From: Planosporangium flavigriseum
GTDB taxonomy: Bacteria > Actinomycetota > Actinomycetes > Mycobacteriales > Micromonosporaceae
Assembly: GCF_011947225.1 (NCBI RefSeq)
Contig: NZ_JAATVW010000005.1
Location: 248,001-312,000 of the forward strand
Direction of reading: 5' to 3'
Length of the DNA stretch: 64,000 nucleotides
The number at the start of each line of letters is the position of its first letter. Within the stretch, counting starts at the first letter, position 1. The notes beneath the pieces were generated by a model. It worked only from the letters and a program-made list of their open reading frames with translations, ran no database searches and was not told the origin of the DNA. Below, piece after piece: positions 8,367-10,845 of this stretch. The position numbers and the translations under genes were made by a program.

Positions 8367-8474
8367 TCAGCTGCTCGTGGTCTTACCGACGCCGACCGGG
8401 CAGGTCATCCCGTTAGGTCCGATTCCGTAGTACCCGTCTTTATTACGGTCAAAGTACTGCTGGTGATTTTCATG
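8367..8474 (-). pseudogene. msrA 3'-end copy A (truncated, most diverged)
   Basis: The minus strand encodes HQQYFDRNKDGYYGIGPNG, then MTCPVGVGKTTSS and a TGA at 8367-8369, clearly the C-terminal tail of MsrA (compare [31 protein letters not shown] in the intact gene at 10189-10845). No upstream MsrA sequence remains; homology ends near 8466-8474. The first recycling cysteine is Tyr here. It lies directly downstream of the vapC remnant. Confidence 0.8.
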
Positions 8475-8508
8475 GGCGTGCAGGAAGCTGCGTCGAACTG
8501 AGTCGGGC

Positions 8509-8916
8509 TTATTTCGATCCGATCAGGGTGAGCCCGTGGTGCTGGCTGAACTCCGGGTAGTCCTTGACGTTCAGGGTCGCCAGTGGGAGGCCTTCGGTGA
8601 GGCAGCACGCCGCGATCCAGGTGTCGTTGACCGGCGTAGTCCTGCCGCGCCGCTGACCCGCAGCCGCAAGTCGACCCCAGGTTTGAGCTACAGCGAGGTC
8701 ATAGCCCAACTGCACCTGACCGGACAACTAAAGTTCCGGCCGTTGCCGGTTACGCGGACCCCAGTCACGAAGCTCAGCCCACTTAGTCATCTCGCCGACC
8801 GTCACGAACGTGACGCATGTCAGCTTGCCGGCGAGGAGAGCCGACATTGGCGACGTCAACCGACCGCGAAAGCTCAACGACGCAACGTCGGTGTCGAGCA
8901 CCACATAGTCCGACAC
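8509..8916 (-). pseudogene. VapC-type PIN-domain toxin interrupted by an in-frame stop codon
   Basis: A GTG at 8916, three bases after the antitoxin stop, opens a PIN domain: YVVLDTDVAS (first acidic pair) and VTVGEMTKWAELRDWGPRNR (second acidic residue). The frame meets TAG at 8728-8730 and then continues without shift as LSGQVQLGYDLAVAQTWGRL, VNDTWIAACCLTEGLPLATL (third acidic residue) and NVKDYPEFSQHHGLTLIGSK to TAA 8509-8511. Relatives I recall have Trp near the stop position, so a single TGG to TAG change would explain it. All catalytic acids survive; a TTG directly after the TAG could restart a 72-residue C-terminal half. The toxin is probably dead, unless the amber codon is suppressed. 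Confidence 0.8.
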
Positions 8917-8919
8917 CGG

Positions 8920-9123
8920 CTACGCCATGTCTGAACGGCGAGCGGCGTAGGTAAACGCCAGGAACTCGTCCAGCTCTTCGTCGGTTTCGAAGATGCCCTC
9001 GCACACAAGGTCATCCACTGACTTGATCGGCTTCAGACCGCGTCGGCGGACCTGCTCATCGAGAGACGCGTGGGGGCGGCGTCCGGTCTGCGGCTGTTCG
9101 ATGCGTTCTGCTCCGCTCGCCAT
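8920..9123 (-). CDS. VapB-type antitoxin of the vapBC module
   Basis: 67 residues from the ATG at 9123, chosen because GAGGAGG lies just upstream (the GTG at 9129 is the alternative). Sequence MASGAERIEQPQTGRRPHAS, then RRGLKPIKSVDDLVCEGIFE and TDEELDEFLAFTYAARRSDM. The SVDDL...GIFETDEELDEFL stretch is typical of antitoxins paired with PIN toxins, whose C-terminal acidic helix blocks the toxin active site. The toxin gene follows after 3 bases but carries a nonsense codon. Confidence 0.7.
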   Translation of the reverse strand: MASGAERIEQPQTGRRPHASLDEQVRRRGLKPIKSVDDLVCEGIFETDEELDEFLAFTYAARRSDMA

Positions 9124-9176
9124 GTACACCCTCCTCGCATTCAGTCTGTCAGGTTGCGGTCCAGTTCGATGCCCCG

Positions 9177-9279
9177 TCAGGCATCGGTCTTGGCGACCCC
9201 GACCGGGCAGGTCATCCCGTTAGGCCCGATCCCGCAGTACCCACCGGGATTCTTGTCCAGGTACTGCTGGTGGTAGTCC
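9177..9279 (-). pseudogene. msrA 3'-end copy B (truncated)
   Basis: The minus strand encodes [25 protein letters not shown] residues, then [12 protein letters not shown] and TGA 9177-9179: the MsrA tail again. By hand alignment it differs from the intact 3' end (10189-10291) at about nine of 103 bases; a 31-base core is identical. Immediately upstream of DYHQQ the frame has TAG, so nothing but the tail is present. It separates the vapBC module from the RelE/Phd-type module. Both recycling cysteines are retained. Confidence 0.82.
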
Positions 9280-9298
9280 TACCGCTCGGGTCATATTT

Positions 9299-9817
9299 CT
9301 ACTTGGGCCTCGACATGTAGGCGCCCCACAGGTCGACGGCCTCTTGAAGGTCCAAGGCTGCGACCTCCTCCCGTTGCATGCCGACCGTGAAGATCAGTCT
9401 CTCTGCGAGCCAGTCGGGTACGGGCTGTCTAGGGGTGGGGTTCGTGGCGACGATGCCGCCCGCGGCGCGCCCGAGTTGTTCGATGACCCGGGCGAGTCTG
9501 ACAAGCTCAGGACGTGTCGGACCGGCTTCCTTGATGCGCGCTGTCGCCTCTGCGTAGACCTCCGCGTCGGCCCGTACGCCGACAGCCCATACTTCGCAGA
9601 CCTCGACCGTCTTGTCGTCGGTGATCCGATAGACGATGCGCCAGGTGTTGCGACCTACGACGAGTTTTCGGAAGCCTGTCAGTTCGCCGCCGAGCGGATA
9701 ACCGGCCTCGGGGTTCTCTTCGAGTAGTAGAACCTTCTTCAGCACCTTAGGGACCGCATCGGGGCCGATCCGCCGCAGGTCGTCGACGGCCGCTTCGGTG
9801 AAACTGACTTCGACCAT
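9299..9817 (-). CDS. RelE/ParE-family toxin with a C-terminal extension
   Basis: 172 residues, ATG start 3 bases after the antitoxin stop. Residues 1-80 have the RelE/ParE order: VSFTEAAVDDLRRIGPDAVP, LLLEENPEAGYPLGGELTGF, RKLVVGRNTWRIVYRITDDK and VEVCEVWAVGVR; the RKLVVG.R.WRIVYR strand is where the basic catalytic or binding residues of RelE-like nucleases lie. Residues 85-172 are an added helical domain ending in VPDWLAERLIFTVGMQREEV, LDLQEAVDLWGAYMSRPK, not present in canonical RelE (about 90-95 aa). The module sits between msrA tail copies B and C. The target (ribosome or gyrase) cannot be told from sequence. Confidence 0.8.
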   Translation of the reverse strand: MVEVSFTEAAVDDLRRIGPDAVPKVLKKVLLLEENPEAGYPLGGELTGFRKLVVGRNTWRIVYRITDDKTVEVCEVWAVGVRADAEVYAEATARIKEAGPTRPELVRLARVIEQLGRAAGGIVATNPTPRQPVPDWLAERLIFTVGMQREEVAALDLQEAVDLWGAYMSRPK

Positions 9818-9820
9818 CGG

Positions 9821-10129
9821 TCACTCGTCGTCTGGCAGCGCCGCCAGCGATTCGCGGGTGTGCCCGAATGCCTTGAGCACGTCATCGAGCGGGGTGCGCG
9901 CACCGTTGTCCGTCGCCGTCCGGGCGAGCACAAGAGCGAGATCCCGAAGGTCTGCTGCTGCCTCTTCGATCTCGTTGAGGCGCTGCATGCTCACCACTGC
10001 GGCGACTGCCTGATTCCGGCGCGTCACGACGACTTCGGATCCGTGCTCGGCGTCAGCAACCAGTCCAGCGACCCCCCGCTGGGTGGCTTCGCTCACGCTG
10101 ACCCGATGGGCGTCATGAAGGATGGTCAT
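9821..10129 (-). CDS. Phd/YefM-family antitoxin
   Basis: 102 residues. N-terminal DNA-binding part HRVSVSEATQRGVAGLVADA, EHGSEVVVTRRNQAVAAVVS matches the Phd/YefM fold (the V.RRN.AVAAVVS strand is characteristic), followed by a helical toxin-binding tail (RLNEIEEAAADLRDLALVLA ... HTRESLAALPDDE). ATG start with no Shine-Dalgarno; a TACATT element 6 bases upstream points to a leaderless mRNA. Direct repeats immediately upstream (10140-10158) are a likely autoregulatory site. Confidence 0.8.
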   Translation of the reverse strand: MTILHDAHRVSVSEATQRGVAGLVADAEHGSEVVVTRRNQAVAAVVSMQRLNEIEEAAADLRDLALVLARTATDNGARTPLDDVLKAFGHTRESLAALPDDE

Positions 10130-10158
10130 ATCAAAAATGTACAGAAAGATATACAGAA
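10130..10158 (-). promoter_or_regulatory. Promoter/operator of the RelE-Phd module
   Basis: An A/T-rich island in GC-rich DNA. On the plus strand TACAGAA occurs at 10140-10146 and again at 10152-10158 (12-base period, about one helical turn). Read on the minus strand, TACATT at 10141-10136 is a plausible -10 element 6 bases from the ATG. Binding by the antitoxin/toxin complex is inferred from the family. Confidence 0.5.
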
Positions 10159-10188
10159 TCGCGAGGGGTTAGCGGCCAGCTGAGCCGG

Positions 10189-10845
10189 TCAGGCTTCCGA
10201 TTTTGCGACCCCGACCGGGCAGGTCATCCCGTTAGGTCCGATTCCGCAGTACCCACCGGGGTTCTTCTCCAGGTACTGCTGGTGGTAGTCCTCGGCGTAG
10301 TAGTAAGGGCCGGCCTTCGCGATCTCGGTGGTGATCTCGCCGTACCCGGCGTCCTGCACGACCGGCGCGAACGCCTCGCGCGACGCGAGCGCCTCGGCCA
10401 ACTGCTCGTCGGTGGTGGCGTAGATGGCCGAGCGGTACTGCGTACCGATGTCGTTGCCCTGCCGCATGCCCTGGGTCGGGTCGTGGTTTTCCCAGAAGAC
10501 CTTGAGCAGCTGCCCGTACGAGATGACCGACGGGTCGAACACGACCTGCACCGCCTCGGTGTGGCCGGTCAGGCCGGAGCAGGTCTCCTCGTACGTGGGG
10601 TTGGGTGTGATGCCGCCGGCGTAGCCGACCGAGGTCGAGTAGACGCCGGGCAGCCGCCAGAAGATCCGCTCGGCGCCCCAGAAGCAGCCCATCCCGACGA
10701 TGGCCACCTGGTGACCGGCCGGCCAGGGGCCGGTGAGGGGAGTGCCCAGCACCGTGTGGCGCCCGGCCACCGGCATCGGCGTGTCCCGGCCGGGCAGCGC
10801 TTCCTCGGGGGTGGGCAGGTCGAGCTTCTTGCGACGCAGGAACAC
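10189..10845 (-). CDS. msrA: Peptide-methionine (S)-S-oxide reductase MsrA
   Basis: 218 residues. Reduces methionine-S-sulfoxide in proteins. The catalytic Cys is C54 in [13 protein letters not shown]; downstream [10 protein letters not shown], the [11 protein letters not shown] strand and [20 protein letters not shown] are diagnostic. The tail [19 protein letters not shown] supplies the two recycling cysteines (C200, C209). ATG start after GGGAGTCTGACC. The last about 100 bases are repeated twice downstream (9177-9279 and 8367-8474), so the present 3' end may have been brought in by an inserted element. A 160-base gap to the HIT gene (10846-11006) holds no gene. Confidence 0.95.

Follow-up and report, generated by a model that had tools for sequence, protein, structure and literature searches.

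We analyzed a stretch of 64,000 nucleotides from Planosporangium flavigriseum (NZ_JAATVW010000005.1, positions 248,001 to 312,000; hereafter, the window), which is part of contig 45 in a genome of 5.7 Mb and carries an intact msrA gene, two further copies of its 3' end ("tails") and two toxin-antitoxin (TA) modules. Read along the minus strand, on which all features below lie unless stated otherwise, the order is intact msrA, a Phd/RelE module, tail B, a VapB/VapC module and tail A. The intact gene (10189..10845) encodes a protein of 218 aa (PF01625, E 7.8e-63); the nearest named MsrA belongs to Catelliglobosispora koreensis (80%), and Micromonosporaceae account for all of the best 14 named loci. 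A preliminary description of this DNA, made from the letters alone, had three msrA tails bracketing two TA modules, and a repeat search of the window confirmed this arrangement to about one base: it returned one family of three 108-nt copies, at 8366-8473 (A), 9173-9280 (B) and 10185-10292 (intact). The intact tail differs from B at 10 of 108 positions (91% identity), in agreement with the earlier hand count of about nine of 103, and from A at 33, while B and A differ at 29. The 26-base block described as common to all three tails is real (alignment positions 56-81), and the intact tail and copy A have 36 identical bases in common. All three copies encode the MsrA C-terminus, and the msrA body is attached to the intact one only. 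When the tail was searched in its own genome, the strong matches were these three copies (E 1.6e-54, 4.6e-37 and 5.5e-17) and the fourth-best had an E of about 1; thus, the three copies are not a chance similarity.

The two modules form cassettes of about 1.0 kb (Phd/RelE, cassette 1) and 0.8 kb (VapBC, cassette 2), tail included. Cassette 1 encodes a Phd/YefM-like antitoxin (9821..10129; PF02604, 27.3 bits, the curated cut-off being 29.8) and a RelE/ParE-like toxin (9299..9817; PF05016, ParE_toxin, 35 bits, above the cut-off); it therefore has the adjacent toxin and antitoxin domains of a type II TA system, with the antitoxin slightly below its cut-off. Homologs of this toxin were found in the arrays of genomes G003 and G105 and past the tail in G058. 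Cassette 2 encodes a VapB-like antitoxin (8920..9129) and a VapC-like (PIN) toxin (8509..8919), whose reading frame is broken by an internal TAG at 8728-8730, the result of either decay or a sequencing error. The Pfam scan gave nothing for 8920-9129 or 8728-8916, and a weak PIN match for 8509-8727 (E 0.076, below the cut-off). The VapBC name rests on clustering with a gene pair at locus L067, to whose antitoxin the VapB-like frame is related and whose toxin, of 133 aa, contains a PIN domain (E 2e-9); as a type II system, this pair is recognized by homology only, and its toxin frame is broken.

To place the window among its relatives, we searched 300 Micromonosporaceae genomes with a 35-residue tail peptide, which matched in 294. 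At least two matches were found in the window genome and in 49 others. In 43 of the 49, the additional copy or copies are on the same contig as msrA, 0.25-26 kb downstream of it; the other six (G043, G066, G170, G198, G214 and G288) were excluded, their second hit being on another contig. The total of 44 of 300 genomes with displaced tails on the same contig, the window included, is a lower bound, because inspection of 34 further msrA regions of the family revealed an extra tail in G003, G178 and G235, and a weak one in G145. Outside the family, 14 genomes in a class sample of 296 had at least two matches, 13 of them on one contig; G418, with its second match on another contig, was left out. 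Judged by these searches, the arrangement occurs across the class and is no local oddity. Family and class arrays contain from one to eight displaced tails after msrA, with eight spread over about 26 kb in G315, a member of another family (loci L202 and L203). The tails of one array are up to 97-100% identical in some loci, and some tails are below 75%. Long arrays are also present in the G315 relatives G439, G459 and G386, which have a TTATTGCC-type left arm in common. At L061 (G029) there are six displaced tails, with cargo that includes AbiE, YCII, Doc, MazF, an NYN-like protein and others, and L071 (G005) has an msrA tail in inverted orientation at 2698-2787, next to direct copies; no other inverted copy near msrA was noticed in the family arrays. 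Eight phage records match the tail peptide with an E no higher than 1, namely six unannotated faecal contigs and two msrA-bearing phages.

Copies in direct orientation downstream of msrA could be the product of an ancient tandem msrA duplication followed by decay, and the preliminary description had named intact extra msrA genes, or cargo that does not vary, as evidence against its own reading of the tail as a repeatedly used attachment site. No second full-length msrA was detected in the 65 array stretches examined (only three secondary matches extend upstream beyond MsrA residue 165, the longest of them weak, at 35%, in L081), the DNA behind msrA varies widely among relatives, and single-tail relatives exist, several of which show the insertion to be exact. 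The duplication was rejected: the crossover maps described below refute it for the mapped insertions, and in general we give it hardly any credence.

We compared 11 pairs of occupied and single-tail loci. In seven of them (L044, L050, L051, L053, L056, L062 and L069), the msrA of the occupied locus matches the relative as far as AAGAACCC, and from there on it is the distal tail that matches, which defines a type-a crossover. The maps of L062 and L050 are the cleanest, and those of L051, L053 and L069 were counted despite a minority of sites pointing the other way. The maps of L077, L078 and L201 are mixed and were left uncounted, as was that of L058 against L194, because L194 carries a homolog of the c19/AbiEii cassette (see below) right after msrA; L194 and L196 were both rejected as single-tail relatives for this reason. 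Beyond the distal tail, the DNA of L062 continues in Micromonospora trifolii (L110; 96% over 1.8 kb), that of L050 in M. antibiotica (L115; 95% over 2,985 bp) and that of L056 in L110 (89% over 1.8 kb). Compared with the empty site, the seven type-a pairs therefore have exact insertions, as produced by reciprocal exchange at one core. These maps bear on another explanation, in which homologous recombination between tails spreads and multiplies TA modules with no site-specific enzyme. The most similar tails are long enough to recombine, and the 36 bases common to copy A and intact msrA would fit; however, the crossovers fall at one short core, the DNA to the left of this core is non-msrA sequence common to the elements that encode large serine recombinases (LSRs), and some tails are less than 75% identical. 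As the sole explanation, homologous recombination is weakened by the type-a maps and seems improbable to us, although it may still shuffle existing units.

A second class of units, type b, to which the window belongs, starts and finishes at CACCAGCAGTACCT and is defined by twin cassettes only. The agreement between the Fic cassettes in L060 and L081 begins at TACCACCAGCAGTACC and stops shortly after the next CACCAGCAGTACC; that between the TacAT cassettes in L060 and L055 has the same limits. Several class-wide arrays begin at the same word. The block of 26-36 identical bases was considered as the type-b crossover and rejected, because the twin cassettes end at CACCAGCAGTACCT. In the window, this core lies in msrA at 10271..10284 and in tail B at 9259-9272, and a remnant of it lies in tail A at 8454-8465. 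To the right of CACCAGCAGTACCT, the msrA tail of the window is unlike those of its congeners G001 and G003, while the body is 90% identical to that of G003; we read the last ~90 bp of the intact gene, on this comparison, as supplied by the Phd/RelE cassette. The tail so replaced contains GYC and TCP cysteines, as read from the sequence, which have a recycling role; therefore, any element that integrates here has to supply a tail that works. The first of these cysteines is lost in copy A (GYY), as is possible for a displaced tail.

Comparison with the congener G003 suggests how the window array was built. The flank past copy A corresponds to the DNA directly after the G003 msrA (56 bp, 89%), and then to the 3' end of a G003 TPR/HTH gene (297 bp, 78%, L087:3884-4180), of which the window retains a remnant (8166..8312), the gene being longer in G003; therefore, both TA cassettes of the window sit between msrA and its native flank. 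The segment from msrA to B corresponds to a stretch 3.2 kb downstream of the G003 msrA (896 bp, 85%), which is flanked by worn tail pieces and ends at the same core word, after which the sequences diverge. By this alignment, the Phd/RelE cassette is at different array positions in the two congeners. The 3' end of copy A and the flank beyond it look native, and the middle of copy A is that of the intact msrA.

The enzyme candidates come from the long elements of relatives. In the family, 13 inter-tail elements measure at least 7.4 kb, and each of them encodes an LSR or a fragment of one. Clustering of open reading frames (ORFs) revealed an 11-member LSR family near the distal tail of the long elements (L044, L045, L051, L052, L054, L058, L062, L064, L074, L083 and L084); two members were domain-scanned, and both have Resolvase and Recombinase domains. 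Nine of the 11 genes, as called, abut or overlap the tail, and those of L083 and L084 lie at a distance of about 2 kb. The LSR of L043 and an LSR fragment in L201 complete the 13. The clustering found no LSR in the 3.8-5.3 kb elements L046.2, L057.1 and L075.2, and the small cassettes have none. The preliminary description had noted that no integrase lies between the repeats, and a search of all 64 kb of the window revealed no LSR either; in relatives, larger elements integrated at this site do encode one.

The type-b LSR (query L058) was found in three of the 300 family genomes at E 1e-100, each time inside an msrA element. The type-a LSR (query L051) was found in 13 of 300 at E 1e-60: all seven relatives at 64-100% identity are inside msrA elements, as is the fragment in G235 (59%), while no msrA lies within 18 kb of the copy in G201 (55%, one stop); five further places are at 39-44% identity. 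In the class, the G315 array has in its first segment an LSR 55% identical to that of L058, and seven class genomes have a close relative of this LSR, six of whose loci were inspected. LSR-b relatives at L218 (Nonomuraea gerenzanensis) and L220 adjoin an apparent aldo/keto reductase gene; this enzyme family therefore appears to have switched targets. Homology to LSR-b was rejected as proof of an msrA target, since relatives elsewhere adjoin other genes. The LSR-b element L058 also carries a RepSA (pSAM2-type) replication initiator, with clustered homologs in L074 and L046. Five large element proteins (two in L051 and one each in L084, L054 and L043) had no Pfam hit.

We built a matrix of the type-a attachment arm from the 32 bases that precede AAGAACCC in seven elements with LSR-a and scored it against a background of about 20,000 random positions. 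The arm was found at 19 of the 28 displaced tails unassigned to LSR elements (p 0.0021 or less each); one of these 19 bounds a 3.8 kb segment (L075.2) and the rest bound small segments, while nine tails, including copy A of the window, fail. The type-b matrix was built from six small cassettes; it matched the window arm at 9273..9298, which adjoins copy B, is the left attachment arm of cassette 1 and also terminates the G003 cassette (p 7e-4; G003 counterpart, 1.5e-3), as well as L058 (9e-4) and L074 (1.6e-3). We consider the evidence from the arms strong for type a; for type b it is partial. One MazF cassette (L070.1 compared with L079.1 and L081.1, 85-87% identical) has a type-a arm in one genus and a type-b arm in another, as if arms had been exchanged.

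The family loci contain 69 inter-tail segments, 52 of them 0.15-3.5 kb long and 40 of these within 0.44-1.18 kb (two segments under 150 bp were dropped before counting). With one ORF caller, we obtained 100 ORFs from the 52 segments and 88 from 45 control flanks, taken 0.7-1.9 kb beyond the last tail. Pfam matches at E 0.001 in the cassettes, tallied for the first 25 of 40 families, were ParE 10, PhdYefM 9, PemK 5, AbiEii 4, Fic 3, TacA 2 and YoeB 1; the flanks had one ParE and one PIN, both TA families also found in arrays. Assigning the family tallies to segments via the ORF list ourselves, we found a toxin or TacA pair in 25 of 52 segments versus 2 of 45 flanks (Fisher p 8e-7), a p value that is only indicative, because related cassettes recur and the segments are not independent. 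Other cargo includes YCII, MazG, carbonic-anhydrase-like, YxiG, GNAT and unknown proteins. The 130 ORFs of the class arrays had PIN 8, PhdYefM 4, ParE 3 and Recombinase 2 (tallied for 25 of 125 families), and PADLOC identified type I methylase and specificity genes. A side observation concerns cluster c19 (L066, L077, L073, L195 and others), a protein of ~117 aa with no Pfam hit, often encoded upstream of an AbiEii-type gene and a candidate partner protein.

The same units recur. A 690-bp Phd/RelE cassette is found in three genera at 86-93% identity, and an 835-bp cassette with a PIN toxin is at position 3 in G315 and position 1 in G459 (98%). Among 29 cross-genus cassette pairs, 21 are closer than the corresponding msrA bodies (up to 95% versus 73%), and eight are no closer. 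This recurrence matters for a third alternative, that small cassettes are merely LSR elements with the interior deleted, their TA genes kept by post-segregational killing and nothing moved in trans. Some remnants fit such decay: the start of an LSR-b gene, recognized by comparison with the L058 sequence, remains beside the tail in L060.3 (1.9 kb), and a RepSA-family fragment that clusters with that of L058 remains in L046.2 (4.2 kb). In the window, a GntR-family regulator gene beyond copy A (7664..7903, plus strand; PF00392), 83-85% identical in tblastx to GntR genes of L058, L046 and L057, is a probable relic of a decayed LSR-b element resembling actinomycete integrative and conjugative elements (AICEs). 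A close LSR is encoded in few of the genomes that have small cassettes. On the other side, 40 of 52 small segments fall within the size range given above, usually with one module directly between tails; whole units recur at other array positions and in other genera; and no TA gene beside msrA was noticed in LSR elements, whose ORFs were not scanned systematically. We consider decay alone a rather unlikely account, though the most serious of the three alternatives.

Taken together, these observations make it probable, in our judgment, that the msrA 3' end is an attachment site, like that of the staphylococcal cassette chromosome (SCC) and targeted by serine integrases, at which non-autonomous TA cassettes accumulate. 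The preliminary description was right in outline on this point. Genome comparison provides the site, the type-a core, the type-b unit ends, exact insertion, tandem build-up, the LSRs of long elements and the type-a arms; mobilization in trans is the step that we infer. By the same comparison, recombination at a fixed core fuses the element's own tail to the msrA body, so that the gene stays open, and displaces the former tail to the far side of the element; repeated events stack elements in tandem, and the recombinase is encoded by the large ones. The window cassettes are, on this reading, non-autonomous type-b members of such an array. VapBC would have arrived before Phd/RelE, which would have inserted between msrA and the native tail A. 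Small cassettes with the arm of LSR elements may have been moved, or may still be movable, by an LSR in trans, or may be trimmed remnants of larger elements, and the over-representation of TA cargo may be due to its resistance to loss.

Several observations weigh against this reading. Four of the 11 crossover maps are mixed or lack a true empty relative. The type-b arm is unmatched by copy A (p 0.20), by the LSR-b element L043 (0.15) and by most other type-b tails. LSR-b relatives at about 50-65% identity elsewhere in the class adjoin other genes, and five of the six inspected loci with relatives of the G315 LSR, as well as a Nonomuraea record, have no msrA tail in the stretch examined. No second tail was detected at E 0.01 in the examined stretches of 80 named loci, 14 of them from Micromonosporaceae. 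In the window, copy A only partly resembles the native tail of the congener, and this reading does not account for the 36 bases in which it is identical to intact msrA; the best match to an LSR in the 64 kb has an E of 0.23, so that no homolog is recognized there, which weakens the case for mobility of the two window cassettes; and the cassette is 85.3% identical to its G003 twin, below the 90.3% of the msrA bodies, so that a recent transfer of the window's own cassette is unsupported.

A further-reaching version, which we put forward tentatively and would not yet favor, is that of an integron-like, LSR-based gene capture: the msrA tail would be a standing dock for one-module cassettes, each with a replacement MsrA tail and an LSR attachment arm, which LSRs provided in trans by passing elements would capture, stack and reshuffle into a class-wide store of TA and other accessory genes. 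If the attachment-site reading is true, antibiotic-producing actinobacteria have a widespread site of gene acquisition, and, since the MsrA C-terminus is swapped at each insertion, a repair enzyme is edited by mobile DNA. It becomes testable whether chromosomal TA modules accumulate as mobile cassettes, by resisting deletion, or both. The units are of a size that can be tested on plasmids, natural genomes give the exact sequence of the arms and empty sites, and the LSRs are a source of new attP/attB pairs.

Among titles and abstract starts of the open-access literature, we found nothing on msrA-targeted integration or on arrays of TA cassettes with serine recombinases. LSR-a is 32-35% identical to the phiC31 and TG1 integrases over about the whole length, and the type-b LSR is about 31% identical to Streptomyces phage integrases; however, all 14 matched phage records are below 60% identity. 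The known targets of the phiC31 and TG1 phage integrases are other genes. In a paper on the phiC31 family, the words methionine and msrA are absent (PMC11530663). Elements of 7.4 kb or more resemble serine-integrase elements in that all 13 carry an internal LSR (a fragment in L201), unlike the small cassettes and the window. Serine recombinases are used by 19 of 144 surveyed AICEs, and msrA was not found as a target in the parts of that survey consulted (PMC3218068); L058 resembles AICEs in its RepSA, whereas the mini-cassettes have none of the core AICE functions. The likeness to integrons is in the way of working only: small units, often with TA genes, stand in rows, can be exchanged and are each closed by a recombination site. 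Here, the recombinase belongs to the serine type, and a coding-gene tail serves as the site. The nearest kind appears to be SCC/ECC, the cassette chromosomes of staphylococci and enterococci, in which LSRs (CcrAB) insert at the 3' region of the housekeeping gene rlmH and leave attachment (att) repeats, and remnants occur (PMC6222049, with PMC12570499 as a further source, both as far as consulted); the tandem mobilization of defenses beside SCCmec cited in the latter may be a close parallel. The msrA elements share with them LSR insertion at the 3' region of a conserved gene and the att repeats. They differ in that the target is msrA (PF01625) in actinobacteria rather than rlmH, that there is one LSR per annotated element, and that units go down to a single TA module, with up to eight displaced tails in a row.

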